A stretch of 43,086 nt of DNA, taken from contig NZ_JASDDG010000035.1 of the NCBI RefSeq assembly GCF_030407495.1, forward strand, positions 1 to 43,086, in the 5' to 3' direction. This DNA is from Arthrobacter sp. APC 3897 (GTDB lineage: Bacteria > Actinomycetota > Actinomycetes > Actinomycetales > Micrococcaceae). The position numbers and the translations under genes are program-made. The notes beneath the pieces were generated by a model. The model had not been told where the DNA came from and searched no databases. It was given only the letters and a program-made list of their open reading frames with translations. Shown here piece after piece: positions 7,971 to 42,947 of this stretch (within the stretch, counting starts at the first letter, position 1; each line of letters begins with the position of its first letter).

Positions 7971-8116
7971 GCTAAGGCAACGTACTTTCCGGAGTTTCGC
8001 CGCAGGTGGGGCCCTGTATTGGGGCCTTTTTCCCCTAGCTCCGGGCCGGAGACGGATTTGACCGTAATCTGACAGATTACCCGCGCCACCCATCCCCCTC
8101 AGGGCACGGTTTGCGC

Positions 8117-8122
8117 TAGCGT
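8117..8122 (+). promoter_or_regulatory. -10 box TAGCGT for leaderless glgP
   Basis: TAGCGT lies seven bases before the GTG start at 8130, with no ribosome binding site. This mirrors the arrangement at divergent glgE. Confidence 0.5.
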
Positions 8123-8129
8123 AACTCGG

Positions 8130-10754
8130 GTGAAGGCAATTCGAAGGTTTACCGTCCGAACAGTCCTCCCCGACAGCATTGCTCCGCTGAGCAAGCTGGC
8201 TTCGAACCTGAGGTGGTCCTGGCATGAGCCCACCACCCGGCTCTTCGCTGACCTTGACCCGGCGGCGTGGCAGGCCAGCGGCCATGACCCGGTTAAGTTC
8301 CTCGGGTCCGTGAGCCGCGGCAGCCTCGAGCGGATGGCAGAGGATGCTGATCTGGTTCAGCGCATCCAGGAACTGGGTGCCGACCTTGATGAGTACCTGA
8401 CTGCGCCGCGCTGGTACCAAACGCTGGGTGAAGACGCGCCCCGTGCCGTGGCGTATTTCTCCCCCGAATACGGGATTAGCGCCGTCCTGCCGCAGTACTC
8501 GGGCGGACTGGGCATCCTTGCCGGGGACCACCTGAAATCGGCCTCGGACCTGGGTGTACCCCTCATCGCCGTCGGCCTCCTCTACCAGGCCGGGTACTTC
8601 AAGCAGGCGCTGTCCCGCGACGGCTGGCAGCTGGAAACGTATCCAGTGCTGGATCCCAACGGCTTGCCGCTGACGCTGCTGCGGGAGGAGGACGGCACGC
8701 CTGCCCGCGTTAATCTTCCGTTGCCCAACAACCGCCGGCTTTCGGCACAGATCTGGCGTGCCGACGTCGGCCGCGTTCCCCTGCTGCTGCTGGACTCGGA
8801 CGTTGTCGGCAACGACGACGCCGCCCGCGGCATTACGGACCGGTTGTACGGCGGCGGCGGGGACCACCGCCTGCAGCAGGAGCTTTTGCTGGGCATGGGC
8901 GGTGTCAAGGCCCTGCGGGTTTACGAACGCCTGTCCGGCACGGCAGCGCCCGAGGTGTTCCACACCAATGAGGGCCATGCCGGTTTCCTTGGCGTTGAAC
9001 GGATCCGCGAACTGATGGACAACGGGATGGGATGGGAAGAAGCCCTGACCGCCACCCGCGCCAACACTGTCTTCACCACCCACACTCCCGTCCCGGCGGG
9101 GATTGACCGTTTTGACCAGTCCCAGATCCGGCATTTCTTCAGTGCCGGCCTGGCGCAGTCCGTCCCCACGGACAAGGTCCTCGCCCTGGGTGCGGAAAGC
9201 TACGACGGCGGTGATCCCGGCAAGTTCAACATGGCGGTCATGGGTCTTCGCCTGGCCCAGCGCGCCAACGGCGTCGCCAAGCTGCACGGAAAGGTGTCGC
9301 GCGAAATGTTCTCGGGCCTGTGGCCCGGATTCGATGTTTCGGAAGTCCCCATTACCTCGGTGACCAACGGCGTGCATGTGCCCTCATGGATTGACCCGGA
9401 AGTGACTCAGCTGGCACGGGAGAAATTCGGGGTTGCCACTGTCCATGACCGTGATTGGAACCGGGCCTATGAAATCAGTGACAGGGATCTGTGGGACCTG
9501 CGGCGACGCCTGCGTTCCAACCTGATTGATGACGTGCGCCGGCGGGTGCGTGCCGCCTGGCGCAAACGCGGGGCCACGGATGCCGAGCTTGCCTGGACCG
9601 AAAACGTCCTGGACCCGGACATCCTTACCATCGGGTTTGCCCGCCGGGTCCCCACTTACAAGCGGCTGACCCTGATGCTGAGGGATCCTGCCCGGCTGAA
9701 GGCTCTCCTTCTGCATCCCACCCATCCGCTCCAGGTGGTGGTTGCCGGCAAGTCGCACCCCGCTGACGAGCAGGGCAAACGCATGATCCAGGACCTCGTC
9801 CGGTTTACCGATGATCCCGAGGTCAGACACCGCATTGTGTTCCTTCCCAACTACGACATCGCCATGGCGCGGACGCTGTTCCCCGGCTGCGATGTGTGGC
9901 TGAACAACCCGCTGCGGCCACTGGAGGCCTCCGGCACCTCGGGCATGAAGTCCGCGATCAACGGAGGCTTGAACCTCTCGATCCTGGACGGCTGGTGGGA
10001 CGAGATGTTCGACGGCGACAACGGATGGGCCATCCCCTCCGCCAACCCGACGCAGGGAGCGCACACGAGGGAGGTGTACGGACCGGACCAGCGCGATGAT
10101 CTGGAAGCGGCAGCGCTGTATGACCTGTTGGAAAACGCCGTGACCCCCATGTTCTACGGCAAGGAACCGCCCGCTGAGGCCGGTGCCGCCGGCCCGTCGG
10201 ATGCCCGGGAAGGGTCCCTGCCCAGCGAGTGGCTGGAAATGGTCAAGCACACCCTCGCTGACCTCGGTCCGGCGGTGTCAGCCAACCGCATGCTGCGTGA
10301 TTACGTGAACCAGCTGTACCGTCCCGCCGGGCAGTCCGGACGTGCTGCTTCAGCCAACGGGTATGCGGCAGCGAAGGAACTGGCGGAATGGATCACCCGG
10401 ATCCGTGACGGTTGGTCAGCCGTTTCGGTGGAACACGTGGATTCCATTGGCATTACCGATGATCCGCAGATTGGGGATCATCTGAACGTGCAGGCCTACG
10501 TTTCCCTTGGTTCCCTGCGGCCGGAGGACGTCAGCGTGGAAGTGGCGTACGGCAAGGCCCTGGAAAATGACCATCTGGAGGACCCTCGGACTGCGGAGCT
10601 GGTTCAGACGGAGGACCTGGGTTCCGGCAGGCACCTGTTCTCCGGCACGATCGGCATTGAGCAGGCCGGCCCCTTCGGTTACACCGTGCGGGTGCTTCCG
10701 GTGCATTCAGGACTGGCCTCGAAGGCGGAGCTGGGACTGGTGGCCAACGCCTAG
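8130..10754 (+). CDS. glgP: Alpha-glucan (glycogen) phosphorylase
   Basis: An 874-aa GT35 phosphorylase releasing glucose-1-phosphate from the non-reducing ends of alpha-glucan. The N-terminal part (APLSKLASNLRWSWHEPTTR) is the extension found in the actinobacterial short-form phosphorylases. The catalytic core contains EASGTSGMKSAINGG, with Lys607 as the expected PLP-binding lysine, followed by NLSILDGWWDE. It faces the opposite way from glgE and converges with glgX, so synthesis and breakdown genes share one locus. The GTG start has no Shine-Dalgarno but a TAGCGT box seven bases upstream, so the mRNA is probably leaderless. Confidence 0.95.
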   Translation: MKAIRRFTVRTVLPDSIAPLSKLASNLRWSWHEPTTRLFADLDPAAWQASGHDPVKFLGSVSRGSLERMAEDADLVQRIQELGADLDEYLTAPRWYQTLGEDAPRAVAYFSPEYGISAVLPQYSGGLGILAGDHLKSASDLGVPLIAVGLLYQAGYFKQALSRDGWQLETYPVLDPNGLPLTLLREEDGTPARVNLPLPNNRRLSAQIWRADVGRVPLLLLDSDVVGNDDAARGITDRLYGGGGDHRLQQELLLGMGGVKALRVYERLSGTAAPEVFHTNEGHAGFLGVERIRELMDNGMGWEEALTATRANTVFTTHTPVPAGIDRFDQSQIRHFFSAGLAQSVPTDKVLALGAESYDGGDPGKFNMAVMGLRLAQRANGVAKLHGKVSREMFSGLWPGFDVSEVPITSVTNGVHVPSWIDPEVTQLAREKFGVATVHDRDWNRAYEISDRDLWDLRRRLRSNLIDDVRRRVRAAWRKRGATDAELAWTENVLDPDILTIGFARRVPTYKRLTLMLRDPARLKALLLHPTHPLQVVVAGKSHPADEQGKRMIQDLVRFTDDPEVRHRIVFLPNYDIAMARTLFPGCDVWLNNPLRPLEASGTSGMKSAINGGLNLSILDGWWDEMFDGDNGWAIPSANPTQGAHTREVYGPDQRDDLEAAALYDLLENAVTPMFYGKEPPAEAGAAGPSDAREGSLPSEWLEMVKHTLADLGPAVSANRMLRDYVNQLYRPAGQSGRAASANGYAAAKELAEWITRIRDGWSAVSVEHVDSIGITDDPQIGDHLNVQAYVSLGSLRPEDVSVEVAYGKALENDHLEDPRTAELVQTEDLGSGRHLFSGTIGIEQAGPFGYTVRVLPVHSGLASKAELGLVANA

Positions 10755-15550: not shown

Positions 15551-16063
15551 CTATGTGTCGCGCAGGGACTCGTGCACCTTGACCACGACGGCGGTTGCCA
15601 CGGCTGCGATGCCTTCACCGCGGCCCGTGAACCCGAGAGCATCGGTGGTGGTTGCGGAGACACTGACCGGGGCACCGGCCGCACCGGAGAGCACTGCTTC
15701 AGCCTCTGCACGGCGGGGGGAAAACTTGGGCCGGTTGCCGATCAGCTGGACCGCCACGTTTCCGATCTCAAATCCGGCGTCGCGGACGATCCGGGCGGCC
15801 TCGCCCAGGAGGGTCAGGCCGGAGGCGCCGGCATATTCTGCCCGGTCCGTTCCGAAGTGGGTACCCAGGTCCCCAAGGCCTGCTGCGGAAAACAGGGCGT
15901 CCGCTGCCGCATGGGCCACCGGATCGCCGTCAGAGTGCCCGGCGAGTCCGCGTTCGCCGTCCCAAAGCAGCCCTGCCACCCAGAGGGGGCGCGGGGCGTC
16001 CGCTGGCGCGAAGGCATGGACGTCCACACCGATGCCGGTACGCGGAAGGTTCATTATGGGCAT
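15551..16063 (-). CDS. ispF: 2-C-methyl-D-erythritol 2,4-cyclodiphosphate synthase
   Basis: The MEP-pathway enzyme (170 aa) that cyclises CDP-methylerythritol 2-phosphate with release of CMP. The metal-binding motif [25 protein letters not shown] and the family C-terminal region are present. AGGAGG lies seven bases before the ATG at 16063, inside the 3' end of ispD, which supports this start over the ATG three codons later. The ispD stop is two bases before the ispF start, so the two consecutive pathway genes are co-transcribed and probably translationally coupled. Confidence 0.96.
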
Positions 16064-34991: not shown

Positions 34992-35969
34992 TCAGGCAGT
35001 CAGCAGGATTTTGCCGGTATGGACGCCCGAATCGAAGTACTCGTGGGCTGCTGCGGCTTCGGACAGCGGAAAGGTCTTGTCCACCAGCGGGCGGATTTTT
35101 CCCGCCTCCACCAACGGCCAGACGTACTGCTTGACCGCCTGCATGATGGCGGCCTTTTCTTCATTCGGGCGGGAGCGCAGAGTGGTGCCAATGACGGCCA
35201 GCCGTTTGCGCATCACGAGGTTGAGGTCGATCTCGGCCTTGGTGCCGCCCTGCAGGCCGATAATCACCAGACGGCCGGAGACCGCCAGGGCTTCCAAGTT
35301 GCGCTGCAGGTACTTCGCCCCGATGACGTCCAGGATGACGTCGGCTCCGCGGCCGCCGGTTTCCTCCTTCACCCGCGCCACGAAGTCCTCGGTCTTATAG
35401 TTGATCAGCACCTTGGCCCCCAGGGACCGGGCCAGCTCCAGCTTCTCCTGCGATCCGGCGGTCACCATGGGGACCGCGCCGAACGCCGCGACCATTTGGA
35501 TGGCCATTGTTCCGATTCCACCCGCTCCACCGTGGATCAGGACATGGTCCCCTTCCGTGACCCCGGCGGCCATGAACAGGTTGGAGAAGACCGTTGCAGC
35601 GGTTTCGGGCAGGGAGGCTGCGGTGACAAGGTCCATGCCCGCCGGTACGGGAAGGACCTGTCCCGCCGGGACATTCACCTGGTCGGCGTAACCGCCGCCC
35701 GTCAGCAGGGCAACGACGTCGGCTCCCACGGAGAACCCTTCAACTCCGGTTCCCACAGCGGCGACCCGTCCGGACACTTCAAGTCCGGGATATTCGGAGG
35801 CTCCGGCCGGAACCGGGTAGTGCCCCTGGCGCTGCAGCACGTCAGCGCGGTTGAGGCCTGCTGCTGCCACGTCGATCAGGATTTCTCCGGGTCCGGGCAC
35901 CGGCGCGGGAACGTCCTGCACCTGCAGGGCTTCCGGGCCGCCGGGCGTATTAATGACAATCGCTCTCAT
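34992..35969 (-). CDS. NAD(P)H-quinone oxidoreductase (zinc-less MDR family)
   Basis: A 325-aa medium-chain dehydrogenase/reductase of the quinone oxidoreductase (PIG3-like) group. The start MRAIVINTPGGPEALQVQ, the NADPH-binding loop HGGAGGIGTMAIQMVAAFGA (about residues 147-166) and DVILDVIGAKYLQRN are typical. The catalytic zinc cysteines of alcohol dehydrogenases are absent. It probably reduces quinones or enones; the true substrate is unknown. The frame is open 14 codons upstream, but GGAGG just before the ATG at 35969 fixes the start. Confidence 0.9.
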   Translation of the reverse strand: MRAIVINTPGGPEALQVQDVPAPVPGPGEILIDVAAAGLNRADVLQRQGHYPVPAGASEYPGLEVSGRVAAVGTGVEGFSVGADVVALLTGGGYADQVNVPAGQVLPVPAGMDLVTAASLPETAATVFSNLFMAAGVTEGDHVLIHGGAGGIGTMAIQMVAAFGAVPMVTAGSQEKLELARSLGAKVLINYKTEDFVARVKEETGGRGADVILDVIGAKYLQRNLEALAVSGRLVIIGLQGGTKAEIDLNLVMRKRLAVIGTTLRSRPNEEKAAIMQAVKQYVWPLVEAGKIRPLVDKTFPLSEAAAAHEYFDSGVHTGKILLTA

Positions 35970-36032
35970 TTTGTCCTCCACGGAGATTGATCGAATTTTG
36001 GTGAAATGCACCTGTCTGCCAGACTACTAGGG

Positions 36033-36120
36033 GGAAGGTTGTCCGAGCGGCCGATGGAGCTGGTCTTGAAAACCAGTGTGCGGTAACCCCGTACCAAGGG
36101 TTCGAATCCCTTACCTTCCG
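36033..36120 (+). tRNA. tRNA-Ser (anticodon TGA)
   Basis: An 88-base class II tRNA with a long variable arm. The acceptor arm GGAAGGT pairs with ACCTTCC. The anticodon stem CTGGT/ACCAG encloses CTTGAAA, giving anticodon TGA for UCA codons. The T arm AAGGG-TTCGAAT-CCCTT is perfect. CCA is not encoded, unlike tRNA-Thr in this window. Confidence 0.97.
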
Positions 36121-36130
36121 CGCAGGAAAG

Positions 36131-36162
36131 AAAAAGCGGGCCCTTTACGGGCCCGCTTTTTT
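36131..36162. terminator. Bidirectional terminator between tRNA-Ser and galK
   Basis: AAAAAGCGGGCCC and GGGCCCGCTTTTT form a perfect 13-base stem with a TTTAC loop; both strands end in a U-tract. It also lies 24 bases past the original galK stop at 36186, which supports that stop as the ancestral gene end. Confidence 0.92.
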
Positions 36163-36185
36163 CTTTGGCGCCGCTGTCCTTGCGC

Positions 36186-37381
36186 CTACGCCCGGCCTGC
36201 TCCGGCAGCCGGAAGGACAGAAAATATTGACGGCGCCGAAATCCCTTGTCTCGGAAGGCCGCCAGCACCGCGGCACTGACGGATTGCTCCTTGTCTTGGC
36301 GAATCAGGGCAATGGCTGAACCGCCAAAGCCGCCACCGGTCATCCTGGCACCCAGCGCACCCGCAGCCAGCGCCGCTTCCACCTCCGTGTCCAGTTCCGG
36401 GCAGGACACCTCAAAATCGTCCCGGAGCGATACATGGGACGCCGTTAAGAGCTTGCCGATACTTTCAATGTTGTTGGCCCGCAGTTCCGCCGCCACATCC
36501 AGCACGCGCTGGTTCTCGCCCAGAATGTGCCGCACGCGCCGCAGGGTCACCGGATCCAGCACCGACAGGTCCGCATCCTCCGGAACCTCCCGCAGGGACT
36601 GAGCTGCCAGGGCCGCAGCGCCGCGGCGGCAGGACTCGCGGCGCGCGCCGTAGCCGCCGTCGGAATGGCTGTGGGCCACTCGGGTGTCCATTACGAGCAC
36701 CGCTAATCCGTGAGCGGCAAGGGGCAGCGGCACCGCCTCTGATTCCAGGCTGCGGCAATCAAGGAACAAGGCGCTGCCCTCCCGGCCAAGGAGCGAAGCC
36801 GATTGATCCATGATGCCTGTTGGCACACCAATAAATTCATTTTCTGCGGCCTGCGTGAGGCGGGCCATTTCCAGCCCGTCCAGCCCCAGCCCCAGCAGGT
36901 CATTGAGTGCCACGATGACGGCAACCTCCACGGCATGCGATGGGGACAGCCCGGCGCCCACCGGAACAGTGGAATCCAGCAGCAGGTCGAACCCGGGGAC
37001 ACTGGCACCGGCGTGACGTCCGAGGGCGTAGACAACACCGGCGGCAGAGGACGCCCAGCCGGAGACCGCGCCCGGTTCCAGTCCCCCGGTGGAGAACGCC
37101 GCGCGGGACAGGCCCTGTCCCGTCGGCGAGTAGGTGGAAGCGGCACGGACGGCGTCGGCGGCGCACTCCAGCCCCGGGCGGCGCAGCCGCACGGCCACCA
37201 GGGCACTCTGGTCGATGGCGAAGGGCAGCACAAAACCGTTGTTGTAGTCGGTGTGCTCCCCGATGAGGTTGACGCGGCCGGGGGCACGCCAGACGCCGTC
37301 CGGTTCCGCACCGAAGACGTCGGCAAAGTGCCGGGCCAGAGCTTCCGCCCGGCCCGAAACGGCGCTGTCCGCAGTACTCAT
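36186..37381 (-). pseudogene. galK: Galactokinase with a one-base frameshift near the 3' end
   Basis: A GHMP kinase phosphorylating galactose at C1. GRVNLIGEHTDYNNGFVLPF, GAGLSPSHAVEVAVIVAL, VPTGIMDQSASLLG and the ATP-site motif MTGGGFGGSAIAL are intact. The ATG at 37381 overlaps the galT stop (ATGA). After DKGF the open frame runs into RRRQYFLSF and continues about 90 codons through the terminator and antisense tRNA-Ser to 35966. Reading one base differently at 36236-36238 (CCC shortened to CC on the plus strand) restores APSIFSVLPAAGAGRA and a TAG at 36186, the usual galactokinase ending, giving 398 aa. The catalytic core would survive, but the tail is wrong. This is either real damage or a sequence error. 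Confidence 0.85.
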
Positions 37382-38534
37382 ATCTGCACTTCCCGGAGTT
37401 TCGCGGCAGTCTGTTCTGCCATGACGTCGTTGACGAAGGCACCCATGGCTGCTTCCGAGCCGGCCAGGAACTTCAGCCTGTCCGCAGCCCGGCGCGGGCT
37501 GGTGAGCTGCAGGTGCAACCACCCCGCGTCACGGTCAGCGGCCGTGACCGGTGTCTGGTGCCAGGCCGAAATGTACGGGGTGGGGGTTTCATAAAGTCCG
37601 TCCACCCGCTTCAGCAGCTGAAGGTAAACCTCTGCGAGCTCGTCCCGTTCCCCTCCGGTCAGTGCTGCCAGGTCCGGCACCTGCCGGTGCGGCACCAGAT
37701 GGATTTCCAGCGGCCAGCGCGCCGCGTAGGGCACGTAGGCGGAGAAATGCTCACCCTGCAGGACCATCCGGTCACCGGCGTCGGACTCGTCCCGGAGCAG
37801 TTCGCCCATCAGCGGCCGGCCATGCTCGGCCAGGTGGCGGCGGGAACGCTCCGCCAGCCGGGCGGCATGCGGAGCCGCATAGGGGTAGGCATAAATTTGT
37901 CCGTGCGGGTGGTGCAGCGTGACGCCCATGTCCTGGCCCCGGTTCTCAAAGGGAAACACGTGCCGGATACCTTTCAGTGCGGACAGCTCCTCGGTGCGCT
38001 GCGCCCAGGCCTCCACCACGGTCCGGGCCCGGGTGTACGGCAGCGAGCCAAACGAGCCGTTGTGCTCGGGGGTGAACACCACCACCTCGCACCGGCCGAA
38101 CGCAGGTTTCGGCAATCCCCACAGGTCTCGGTCGCTACCCTCCCCCGGCACCGGCAGGGTTCCCAGAGCCGGGCCAAGGGAAGGGAAACGATTTTCGAAG
38201 ACGACGACGTCGAAGTTGGCGGCGGGGATTTCCGACAGCCGGCCGGCGGTGCCCGGACACAGGGGCACTGGTCTGCCGGTGGCAAATAGGTCCGCGACTG
38301 CCGGTGAGCTGCCACCGCCACCCATTCCCCGCTCAGCCGGTCGAAGCGGACCTCACCGTTGCCCGAACGGCTTTCCAGCGGGCGCATGTCCTTTTCCAGT
38401 TCCACCGGCTGCCCTCCCCGGTCGGTGAAGGACAATGCTTCCCGCCCGTCGGCAAGGCGGTGCCGGCGGTGCAGGATGGGAAGCGTCGCTGCCCCCGACC
38501 GGGCCGCCGCCGGGAACAAAGAGCGGCCGGGCAT
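37378..38534 (-). pseudogene. galT: Galactose-1-phosphate uridylyltransferase split by a one-base frameshift
   Basis: Two overlapping frames together give a full GalT of 385 aa that exchanges UMP between UDP-glucose and galactose-1-phosphate. The first frame (from ATG 38534, GGGAGG seven bases upstream) carries RRHRLADGREALSFTDRGGQ and SGEWVAVAAHRQSRTYLPPA. The second carries FDVVVFENRFPS, the active-site HHPHGQIYAYPY and the C-terminal domain. They join at a CCCC run (38261-38264 on the plus strand as GGGG); one more C restores CPLCP, the zinc-ligand motif. As it stands translation stops after about 186 residues. The gene begins immediately after the permease stop and overlaps galK. Confidence 0.87.
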
Positions 38535-39497
38535 TTACTGGCCTCCCATTCCGGAGGTTGCGAAGCCCCGAATGATGTGCCGCTGGAAGAGCATGAAGAC
38601 AATCAGCAGCGGAAGCGCACCGATCATGGCACTGGCCATTTCCGATGCATACTGCACGCCGTAGGCATTCTTCACGGTTCCCAGTCCCACGGGAATGGTC
38701 ATGATTTCGGGTGAATTCGTGACGATGAACGGCCAGAGGAAGTTGTTCCAGGCGCTAATGAATACGAAGATCGAAACAGCCGTGAGGATGGAACGGGACA
38801 GGGGAAGGACCACGGCGTAGAAAACGCGGAAATCGCTGGCGCCGTCCAGCCTGGCTGCTTCTTCCAGTTCAACTGGGATTTGGTCAAAGAAGTTCTTCAT
38901 GACGATGACCATCAGGGGCATGACCACCTGGGGCAGGGCCACGCCCAGGAGCGTATCGGAAAGCCGCAGGGCGATCATTTGGTCAAAGAGCGGAACAATG
39001 AGGATCTGCGGCGGAACCATCAGAGCGGCCAGGGTGAGTCCAAACAGCCAGCGGCGTCCGCGGAACTTCTGCCGCGAGAATGCATAGGCTGCCAGCGCTG
39101 AAATGGTCACCGTGACAATGGTGACGATGGTTGAGACCAGGATCGAATTCCAGATCCACAGGGGAATGTCACCGGCAGCCAGGACGCCGCGGTAGGCGTC
39201 TGCGGTCCAGCCGCCCTCCGGCCAGAATTTCAGGGGTGCCGCCGAAGCGTCCGCCTCCGACTTGAAGGAGGACAGCACGGCCCATCCCAGGGGCAGCGCC
39301 CACAAGGCGGCAAGCACGGCAACTACGGAATAGGCGGCCACCCTGCCCCTGCGGCCCGGACCGAGGGTCAGGGTCCGCAGATGTTCGACTTCCCGCTTTT
39401 TCTGGGCCCGTGTGCGGGCCCGCTCGGACAGCCCTGGCTCTTGGGCCGGGGAAGCCGCAGACGCGGCTTTAACTGCCGATGTGGTTGTGCTGGCCAT
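38535..39497 (-). CDS. Carbohydrate ABC transporter permease (MalG/LacG type)
   Basis: 320 aa. A cytoplasmic N-terminus of about 50 residues is followed by six membrane helices and the ABC permease EAA motif EEAARLDGASDFRVFYAVVLPLS. With the partner permease it forms the channel of a CUT1-type sugar importer. The adjacent galT and galK suggest a galactoside such as lactose or melibiose. AAGGA eight bases before the ATG supports the start. It follows the other permease after one base and is abutted by galT. No ATPase gene is present, so a shared MsmK-like ATPase elsewhere is likely. Confidence 0.93.
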   Translation of the reverse strand: MASTTTSAVKAASAASPAQEPGLSERARTRAQKKREVEHLRTLTLGPGRRGRVAAYSVVAVLAALWALPLGWAVLSSFKSEADASAAPLKFWPEGGWTADAYRGVLAAGDIPLWIWNSILVSTIVTIVTVTISALAAYAFSRQKFRGRRWLFGLTLAALMVPPQILIVPLFDQMIALRLSDTLLGVALPQVVMPLMVIVMKNFFDQIPVELEEAARLDGASDFRVFYAVVLPLSRSILTAVSIFVFISAWNNFLWPFIVTNSPEIMTIPVGLGTVKNAYGVQYASEMASAMIGALPLLIVFMLFQRHIIRGFATSGMGGQ

Positions 39498-39498
39498 G

Positions 39499-40434
39499 TC
39501 AGGAATCCTTTCGCTTCGCGAGGCGCATCTGGACCAGGGAGACCAGGACGATCAGCGCGAAGAAAATGTAGGAGGTGGCCGAGGCATAGCCGAGCCGGTA
39601 CCCGGTGAACCCGGAATCATAGATGTACTGCAGGATGGAGCGCGTGGCCCCGTTGGGCCCGCCGGCGGTCAAGAGGAAGATCTGGTCGAAGACCTTCAGG
39701 GAAGCCAGTGCCTGAAGCAGGATGATCAGCCCCGTGGTGCTCTTCATCATGGGCAGGGTGATGGAGAACAGACGCCGCCAGGTTCCGGCCCCGTCCAGCT
39801 GCGCCGCCTCATAGAGGTGGTCCGGAATATTCTGCAGCGCCGAAAGATAGAGCAGGAAGTTGAAGCCGACGGTCCACCACAGTGTGACCAGCGCTATGGA
39901 CCACATGGCAATGCGCTCGTCGCTTAGCCAGCCCACCTGGCTCAGGCCGGCCTTGTCCAGCAGGCCGTTGACAAGGCCAAAGTCGTTGGTGAACAGGAAC
40001 GCCCAAATAGCCGTGACCACGGAAACCGGCAGCAGGAACGGTGCAAAGAAGGTTAGCCTCCAGAGCCATTGACCCTTGAGCCCGGTGTAGACGAGGTATG
40101 CCATGACAAAGGAGACCAGCACCAGCGGCACGGAGGAGATCACCGTGAAGAACAGGGTGTTGCCCAGTGAGGACCACATCTGCGGATCGGTCAGGGCCTC
40201 GCCGTAGTTGGAGAGTCCGGCAAATTCGGAATCCTCTGTGACCAGCGAGCGGTTGGTCAAGCTCATCCACAGGCCGTAAATGATGGGCCAAATGAGGAAG
40301 AGTGCAAAGAAGAACAGATAGGGCGCGAGGAACCAGTAGCCGGTCCGTGGAAGGGCGCGTTTCCGCGGTTCGGCCGCCGAGCTGATCGAGGCCGGAGGCC
40401 GCGGTGCTTGGGCGGGACTTGTGGTGGTGGTCAT
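39499..40434 (-). CDS. Carbohydrate ABC transporter permease (MalF/LacF type)
   Basis: 311 aa with six predicted membrane helices (first GYWFLAPYLFFFALFLIWPI) and the EAA motif YEAAQLDGAGTWRRLFSITLP. Partner of the permease at 38535-39497 in a CUT1 sugar importer. The frame is open 67 codons further upstream into the binding-protein gene, but GAGGAG six bases before the ATG at 40434 marks the true start. The stop of the binding-protein gene is ten bases upstream, so the transport genes form one operon. Confidence 0.93.
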   Translation of the reverse strand: MTTTTSPAQAPRPPASISSAAEPRKRALPRTGYWFLAPYLFFFALFLIWPIIYGLWMSLTNRSLVTEDSEFAGLSNYGEALTDPQMWSSLGNTLFFTVISSVPLVLVSFVMAYLVYTGLKGQWLWRLTFFAPFLLPVSVVTAIWAFLFTNDFGLVNGLLDKAGLSQVGWLSDERIAMWSIALVTLWWTVGFNFLLYLSALQNIPDHLYEAAQLDGAGTWRRLFSITLPMMKSTTGLIILLQALASLKVFDQIFLLTAGGPNGATRSILQYIYDSGFTGYRLGYASATSYIFFALIVLVSLVQMRLAKRKDS

Positions 40435-40444
40435 GGATGGCTCC

Positions 40445-41764
40445 TCACGCCGTCGGGTTCGGGGCAGCCAGGAACCGGTCCATGCCGGCAAGCATGCCGC
40501 CAACCGCGTCCATCGGCTTCGTTCGGCCCCGGAAGGCGTCTGAAAGGGATTGGGACATCTGGTTCTGGAATTCGGTGCCTGCACCGGCGAACCACGCGGG
40601 CGGGTCGAAGACCACTCTTGAGCCGGCGTCCGCATACTCCGCCTGCGGGCGCAGGCCGCGGTACTCGGAGGTCTCCTGCGCGGGAAGGAAGGCGGGAATG
40701 TGTCCGGCCGTACCCCATTGCGGTCCCCCTCCGCGGATCACTGACGTCACAAATTCGTACACGGAACGGCGGCGTTCGTCGGTCATGGACCGCTGGCGGG
40801 GCAGGACATAGCTGTGTGAATCGGCATAGGCGGCAGGAGTGCCGAACATGGTGGGCATCGGCATGGCACCGAGGTTGGGCTGGGAGGCCTGCAGGCCTGA
40901 AACTTCCCAGACACCGGAAAGGATCATTCCCACGCGGCCACCGTTGAAGGCGGCCAGCCCGCCCTCATAATCCAGGTTTCTGGTCATTGCAGTGCCGTCC
41001 GTCCAGGAGGCCACCGCCCCTATCACGTCTGCCGCCTTGGCCTCGTCCAGGGCTGCCTTCTGCCCCTGCTCAAGGCTCCAGCCGCCGCCGGTCTGGCGGT
41101 AGAGACCCCAGAAAAGCCGCCAGGCCTGGGCAGTGTCCATCACATAGCCAAAGCTGATGCCGGAGCCCCCGGTGACTTCCGCGAGCTTGGCACCCACTTC
41201 GCGCATCTGGTCCGGCGAGGAAATTTCAATGCTTCCATCGCTGGCCAGCACACCCGCGCGGTCGGCGAGGTCCTGGTTGAAGAAGGTAATAAACGGATGG
41301 GTATCCAGCGGGAGGGAGTACAGCTTCCCCTCGTATTGGCAAGATTTCCACACAGCCGGAGCAAAATCCGCTTCGGTGACGCCCATCTCAGCCAGCAGTT
41401 CAAGATCCCACGGTTCCAGCAGTCCGCCTGGAGCATAGCCCGGCATCCGGGAGAGGTGCATGATGGCGGTATCCGGTGGTTGCTGGGATGCCGAACTCAT
41501 GGCTAGCTTGGTGTAATACGGCGATCCCCAAGACAGGGTGGTCGGCTCAACGGAGAGTCCGGTCCTGGATTGAACATCCCTGATGATTCCGCGCATGTTG
41601 GCACCATCGGCTCCCTGGAACGGGTCCCAGACCGTGACCTTCCCACCGCCGCCCGACGCACCCGGACTGCCGCAGCCCGCCAGCGACCCCACAGCTCCTG
41701 CAGTGACGGCCGCAGCAAGCGCGCCCTGCAGGAACTGCCTGCGATTCGGATACTTCATGTTCAT
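40445..41764 (-). CDS. Extracellular sugar-binding lipoprotein of the galactoside ABC transporter
   Basis: 439 aa from the ATG at 41764 (or 437 from 41758). The N-terminus has a twin-arginine motif (NRRQFLQGA), a hydrophobic stretch and a lipobox LAGC, so it is probably a Tat-exported lipoprotein. The mature part is a family 1 solute-binding protein (KVTVWDPFQGADG, LYSLPLDTHPFITFFNQDL). It captures the sugar for the two downstream permeases. The much longer open frame to 42019 runs into the regulator gene on the other strand and is not credible. It is the first gene of the binding protein-permease-permease-galT-galK operon; a LacI-type operator overlaps its likely -10 box. Confidence 0.92.
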   Translation of the reverse strand: MNMKYPNRRQFLQGALAAAVTAGAVGSLAGCGSPGASGGGGKVTVWDPFQGADGANMRGIIRDVQSRTGLSVEPTTLSWGSPYYTKLAMSSASQQPPDTAIMHLSRMPGYAPGGLLEPWDLELLAEMGVTEADFAPAVWKSCQYEGKLYSLPLDTHPFITFFNQDLADRAGVLASDGSIEISSPDQMREVGAKLAEVTGGSGISFGYVMDTAQAWRLFWGLYRQTGGGWSLEQGQKAALDEAKAADVIGAVASWTDGTAMTRNLDYEGGLAAFNGGRVGMILSGVWEVSGLQASQPNLGAMPMPTMFGTPAAYADSHSYVLPRQRSMTDERRRSVYEFVTSVIRGGGPQWGTAGHIPAFLPAQETSEYRGLRPQAEYADAGSRVVFDPPAWFAGAGTEFQNQMSQSLSDAFRGRTKPMDAVGGMLAGMDRFLAAPNPTA

Positions 41765-41843
41765 CCTGCTCCATTTCCGGGCTCTGAACGCTGACTCATC
41801 TTTGAGGACAGACTGACTGGTGAGCTGAACCACATGAAAAGGG

Positions 41844-41862
41844 ATTCTAACGTTAGCAATTG
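41844..41862. promoter_or_regulatory. LacI-type operator and promoter in the divergent regulator/transporter gap
   Basis: The perfect palindrome CTAACGTTAG (41847-41856) lies in ATTCTAACGTTAGCAATTG. On the minus strand TAGAAT (41849-41844), part of the same sequence, could be the -10 box of the transport operon, so a repressor bound here would block it. A second, near-identical site is at 42989-43004. Confidence 0.7.
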
Positions 41863-41942
41863 CCCACCGTCTACTCTTGGGTTTGAAGTGAACATTCATG
41901 CGGCTTCCTGCCGCCCCGATGACAGGACAGACAGTGCAGCCA

Positions 41943-42947
41943 ATGAAGCGAGTGGGAATCAAGGAGGTTGCCGAACGTGCCGGAGTCTCATGGAAGACCG
42001 TTTCCAATGTGATGAACAACCGGCCCGTGGTGCATCCTGAGACCCGCGCCCGGGTGCTTCAGGCCGTGGAGGAACTTGGCTACACCCCCAATCTCATTGG
42101 CCGCCAGCTGCGCCAGGGCTCCACCCGCGCGATCGCCCTCGTAGTGCCTGACCTGCACAACCCCTACTTCGGTGTGCTCGCCCAAACCCTGGAAAGTGCG
42201 GCCAAGCGGCGCGGTTACACCATCTCCATCGAGATCTCCGGAGGCACTGTGGATGTTGAGCAGCACTATCTGCAGGGTTGGCATGGCCGGCTGTTTGACG
42301 GCCTGATTTTCTCGCCCTCGGCCGTCACGGCCGAAGCCATTGCCAAACGAACGGATCCTGCGCCCCTGGTGCTGCTGGGCGAGCGGATTATCAACACCGA
42401 TGTTCCCCACGTTGCCATCGACAACGTAGCCTCCAGCGTAGATCTGGTGCGGCACCTGGTGGAGGGAGGCAGGCGCCGGATCGCTTTCCTTGGCGCGGAC
42501 AGGACGGGCGGCATTTCCACCGGAAGCCAGCGGTTCGAAGGATACAAAGCTGCCCTGCGGTTCGCGAACCTGCCGTATGAAGAATCGCTGGTGGCGGCCA
42601 CCAGCTCCTGGTTCCGGCAGGACGGGTATGAGCTGACGCAGCAGATCCTCTCCGGCCACGGGGTAGACGCAATAGTGTGCGCCAATGACCTGCTTGCCGT
42701 CGGCGCCCTCGCGGCCGCCCGGGACCTGGGCCGCCGGGTTCCTGCGGACCTGGCATTGGTTGGCTGGGACAACATTGACGAGGTCCGCTATACCTCCCCG
42801 GGCATCACCTCCGTGGCGCCGGATCTGGAGGCGCTGGCCGAGGCAGCCCTGTCCTCAGTACTTGGGGAACTCGACGGCGAGGTCGTCATTCCCCACCGGG
42901 TGGTGGAGCGGGCATCGTCCGCACCTGCGGACCCGGCAACCGTCTGA
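41943..42947 (+). CDS. LacI family transcriptional repressor of the galactoside locus
   Basis: 334 aa. The DNA-binding helix-turn-helix and hinge (VGIKEVAERAGVSWKTVSNVMNN ... RARVLQAVEELGYTPN) occupy the first 50 residues. A periplasmic-binding-protein-like effector domain follows (ALVVPDLHNPYFGVLAQTLE, IVCANDLLAVGALAAARDLG, LVGWDNIDEVRYTSPGITSV). It probably releases DNA when the imported sugar or a derivative binds. Upstream in-frame ATGs at 41898 and 41919 exist; MKRVGIKEV at 41943 is the family-like start, though no clear ribosome binding site is seen for any. It is divergent from the transport operon and followed by a second operator. Confidence 0.9.
   Translation: MKRVGIKEVAERAGVSWKTVSNVMNNRPVVHPETRARVLQAVEELGYTPNLIGRQLRQGSTRAIALVVPDLHNPYFGVLAQTLESAAKRRGYTISIEISGGTVDVEQHYLQGWHGRLFDGLIFSPSAVTAEAIAKRTDPAPLVLLGERIINTDVPHVAIDNVASSVDLVRHLVEGGRRRIAFLGADRTGGISTGSQRFEGYKAALRFANLPYEESLVAATSSWFRQDGYELTQQILSGHGVDAIVCANDLLAVGALAAARDLGRRVPADLALVGWDNIDEVRYTSPGITSVAPDLEALAEAALSSVLGELDGEVVIPHRVVERASSAPADPATV

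Follow-up and report, generated by a model that had tools for sequence, protein, structure and literature searches.

Loss of sugar-use genes by frameshift or pseudogene formation is described in some strains of two bacteria, Propionibacterium freudenreichii, which has paralogous galK copies (PMC4437456), and Streptococcus thermophilus (PMC8925076). Unlike the account given below, the passages of these two papers on which we draw do not mention galT and galK frameshifted together where a second, intact pair is present. Galactokinase (GalK; TIGR00131) is the Leloir pathway member of the GHMP kinase superfamily, and its solved relatives include PDB 7rcl and 6tep. The window, i.e., the whole stretch of 43,086 nucleotides from Arthrobacter sp. 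APC 3897 that was analysed, encodes a GalK that resembles known galactokinases in its 381-codon conserved frame, its galactose-binding signature and both of its GHMP domains, but that differs from them in a C-terminal segment that lies out of frame and in a motif that reads GLSPS rather than GLSSS.

The conserved galK frame (codons 1-381) occupies positions 36239..37381 of the minus strand and was assigned from TIGR00131, three Pfam domains and identity to orthologues. The protein matches the curated model TIGR00131 with 281.2 bits (cut-off, 226.65), and four other NCBIfam galactokinase models also match, all below their cut-offs. PF10509, PF00288 and PF08544, which represent the galactose-binding signature and both GHMP domains, score above their cut-offs, and the protein is 67-80% identical to 12 orthologues. 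The last codon kept in the conserved frame is F381 (36241-36239), and it is followed by a two-base junction codon (36237..36238, minus strand), where a nucleotide alignment with the 12 orthologues places a one-base gap in the window gene. The expected end of the gene, APSIFSVLPAAGAGRA followed by TAG, lies in the other frame (36186..36236, minus strand), with APSIF beginning at 36236 and the closing TAG at 36188-36186, and it matches the ends of 29 relatives and of a second copy in the same genome. The original prediction, which held that galK is one base short near its 3' end and that one added base restores a normal end at 36186 just before a terminator, therefore agrees with the alignment, and the TAG indeed sits immediately 5' of a hairpin. 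Relative to its relatives the frame is broken, as in a frameshift pseudogene. Because the Pfam GHMP_kinases_C match stops at residue 376, ahead of the break, the lost segment falls outside that Pfam model.

As assembled, the frame instead runs on for 90 codons and a TGA (35966..36238, minus strand), and the TGA, which ends at 35966, forms an overlapping ATGA with the start codon of the next gene. The extension passes through a hairpin flanked by A and T runs (approximately 36131..36163; -30.5 kcal/mol and z -3.9 for a folded 59-nt stretch) and then reads a plus-strand tRNA-Ser (TGA; 36033..36121) in antisense. The hairpin is a probable terminator common to tRNA-Ser and galK; a scan for consensus terminators listed none in 35900-38700 and so does not include it. 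The route of the extension had been anticipated, as had its consequence, an over-long galactokinase call, which amounts to 471 aa from the ATG at 37381 or 518 aa from an upstream GTG. Its coding score is -0.09 over the whole length, the first 60 codons alone score 0.13, and long ORFs often arise by chance in the sequence of the window.

We compared this end with those of other galactokinases. A search of 59 genomes (its own and 58 others) found galactokinase in 55, and 29 loci from the 54 other genomes with the gene were read, which together with the window locus gave 30. In all 29 relatives' loci, 51-63 residues follow the motif TGGGFGG, and the second GalK of the same genome has 52, whereas the window GalK has 124. 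An F...P..GA segment is likewise present in the tails of 29/29 relatives' loci and of the second copy. The extended C-terminus, which the original prediction had expected to be missing from close relatives, occurs at 0 of the 29 loci. In the galK of one relative, G015 (locus L013), codon 23 is an in-frame TAG, where its close relative G028 has TAC; within this clade, the TAG represents either a base error or an independent lesion.

A second departure lies within the conserved frame, where codon 147 (36941..36943, minus strand) replaces the second Ser of GLSSS with Pro. The motif was found in 109 of 111 loci, among which some genomes are counted twice, and the triplet reads SSS in 107 of them, ASS in one and SPS in the window. 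A literature search for a galactokinase with A384P found none. In this clade (L004-L014 and the window, 36935-36937), the Ser triplet is followed by His, and many galactokinases have Ala there; PVGAGLSSSH occurs in 21 loci and PVGAGLSSSA in 29.

The gene next to galK is also broken. At the end of the window, a minus-strand sugar operon comprises genes for a binding protein and two permeases followed by galT and galK, with a LacI-like regulator (41898-42947) diverging from it; galT and galK were named by family models, and the transporter genes and regulator by reading of their sequences. The first part of galT (38262..38534, minus strand) contributes 91 codons in frame; reading then carries on in the wrong frame until 37974, where it stops after 186 codons in total. 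The second part (37378..38265, minus strand) lies in another frame, contains HPHGQ, and shares 84-87% identity with 11 orthologues and 79% with that of G010; its stop overlaps the galK ATG at 37381 as ATGA. Alignment with the 11 orthologues places a one-base gap near 38262-38265, which puts galT out of frame by one base within 38259-38265, and the break is also evident against the ORFs of six relatives (G002, G009, G013, G027, G015 and G014). The breaks in galT and galK are both one-base shortfalls in short G/C runs, approximately 2 kb apart, and the sugar-transport genes beside the pair remain open. The transporter and LacI-like genes (38535-42947) have matches in G009, G013 and G014, and none in the fetched flanks of G002, G027 and G015. 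By its neighbouring genes the window is closest to G014 (cstA, 97%), whereas for galT, galK and the transporter genes G014 is no nearer than other genomes are (galK, 73%), which suggests from sequence comparison that the operon (36186-42947) has a history distinct from that of its neighbours.

The same genome encodes a second galK on contig C59, whose product is 58% identical to the window GalK. It adjoins an intact 403-aa galT, and the pair, which is preceded by a regulator that reads as DeoR-like, matches the window pair in gene content and order. However, both C59 frames are intact, and no LacI or ABC-transporter genes were seen among the C59 neighbours. Among the genomes searched, G014 is the one other genome of the genus with two galactokinase matches.

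From these features, we favour recent inactivation of a redundant galT-galK pair over a local sequence error, with a probability of roughly 0.6. Each gene would recently have been put out of frame by the loss of one base in a short G/C run. GalT stops early and does not include HPHGQ; GalK lacks the final 16-17 native residues, has gained an unrelated tail of 90 residues and has Pro in its GLSSS nucleotide-binding loop. Because GalT is truncated and GalK combines a missing native end with the tail and the Pro, both window proteins are probably inactive, as judged from their sequences. The loss would be tolerated because an intact pair is present on C59, which may suffice to carry the pathway. 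Accumulation of galactose-1-phosphate is toxic. If galT was lost first, then loss of galK could have been favoured because it would avoid a build-up of this intermediate, a pressure that would be smaller while a second galT exists; the passages of PMC6329577 that were consulted contain nothing on galactose-1-phosphate toxicity.

The age of such a loss can be gauged from the rest of galK. Its private N/S ratio is 0.32, compared with 0.15-0.69 for six others, and its dN of 0.136 and dS of 0.916 against G002 are in line with other pairs; galT shows a similarly good conservation. Relaxed selection along the lineage, which would be expected under older decay, was therefore not found for galK by private N/S or by pairwise dN and dS, and because these values are ordinary, any loss must be recent and the gene at most a recent pseudogene. 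Of 219 columns that do not vary among 11 orthologues, 13 differ in the window GalK, the Pro in GLSSS among them, whereas ten orthologues depart at 0-5. Against inactivation, G014 exceeds the window on the same measure (17/223) even though its galK frame is intact. The orthologues in this comparison include the near-duplicates G009/G026, G027/G012 and G015/G028, which lowers the counts of those genomes; a seven-taxon count of private changes left the order unchanged (13/229 for the window, 20/236 for G014 and 3-7 for the others).

The main competing explanation is that both breaks are local errors of sequencing or assembly and that the organism itself has an intact galT and galK, which is possible and which we entertain as the second choice. 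One-base shortfalls in short G/C runs are the usual form of read error, and both genes are otherwise under ordinary purifying selection. The assembly of G014 illustrates that errors of this kind can be frequent in public assemblies. This single-contig genome has many one-base frame breaks (e.g., L155-L161), including one in an ATP synthase gene and an rplC-rplD fusion, and it looks like an error-rich assembly.

We evaluated this explanation by comparing the window and parts of contigs C13, C18, C31, C34 and C56 with the matching stretches of G014, which covered 271 genes and 238,731 bp (excluding the window, 245 genes and 215,016 bp). C59 was left out of these counts, as it is not syntenic with the fetched G014 stretch (10-13 genes with a median identity of 33-37%). 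A frame-break test reported galT alone inside the window and 35 candidates outside it. At the second-frame score threshold of 0.15, galT, the positive control, scored 0.04 and was not flagged; because the threshold rule missed it, candidates were judged by the gap between frames. Since G014 itself has many frame breaks, this judgement was based on coding scores, with the main candidates also inspected by eye. The clear candidates outside the window proved to be breaks in G014, shadow frames, sequence lying ahead of gene starts, or a gap of 10 N. For instance, the breaks behind the C18 rplC/rplD candidate and the stress-protein-like candidate on C13 (15267-15771) belong to G014, the C56 candidate is the 10-N gap in the assembly to which the window belongs, and the C13b candidate at 15938 reads as sequence upstream of a gene start. 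A few others (C18b 8054-8456 and C34 6932-7259) lack a clear coding signal whichever frame is read. Among the candidates with a coding signal in the 245 control genes, no credible further break in the assembly was found.

The frame-break control is weak for breaks close to the end of a gene, and galK escapes it because its tail is short. When gene ends were screened separately for excess length, 42 of the 271 genes were flagged, galK included. A coding match combined with a negative mean score over the whole extension was seen only in galK and in the N-gap case (-0.52), and the score over the first 60 codons does not single out galK. Because the control genes look clean while two breaks lie 2 kb apart, uniform sequencing error fits poorly. 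The clean appearance of the sampled assembly elsewhere argues against uniform error, and it is still compatible with a locally poor stretch. Two further observations weigh against a local error: the window contains no N bases, and the Pro in GLSSS results from a base substitution, which a homopolymer error would not produce and which would need one more error, a feature that speaks for inactivation.

Two other explanations keep the locus functional, and both are highly improbable. Programmed frameshifting would restore the normal end of GalK by joining APSIFSVLPAAGAGR to the upstream frame, and the correct end does lie directly after the break in the other frame; however, at the end of galK a shift is required in none of the 29 relatives' loci, the galT break would call for a second one, and no slippery motif was seen by eye. 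The idea that the extension is a genuine functional C-terminus, so that an extended GalK is made and active and its ATGA overlap couples translation to the downstream oxidoreductase gene, draws on a frame that stays open up to the next start codon, and it is scarcely credible given that ribosomes would have to pass the strong hairpin and antisense tRNA-Ser, that none of the 29 relatives read has such a tail, that the whole-length coding score is negative (though positive over the first 60 codons), and that long ORFs often arise by chance here.

Taken together, we regard the window galK as probably an ordinary frameshifted gene or, possibly, the product of a local sequence error, and in either case as nothing new in kind. 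A call of a 471-518 aa galactokinase at this locus would be wrong, and this copy of galK is unsuited to predicting galactose use. If the recent inactivation that we favour is correct and the breaks are real, then the locus would represent a small, clean case in which a redundant two-enzyme module was lost at one of two loci while the transport genes beside it stayed open.
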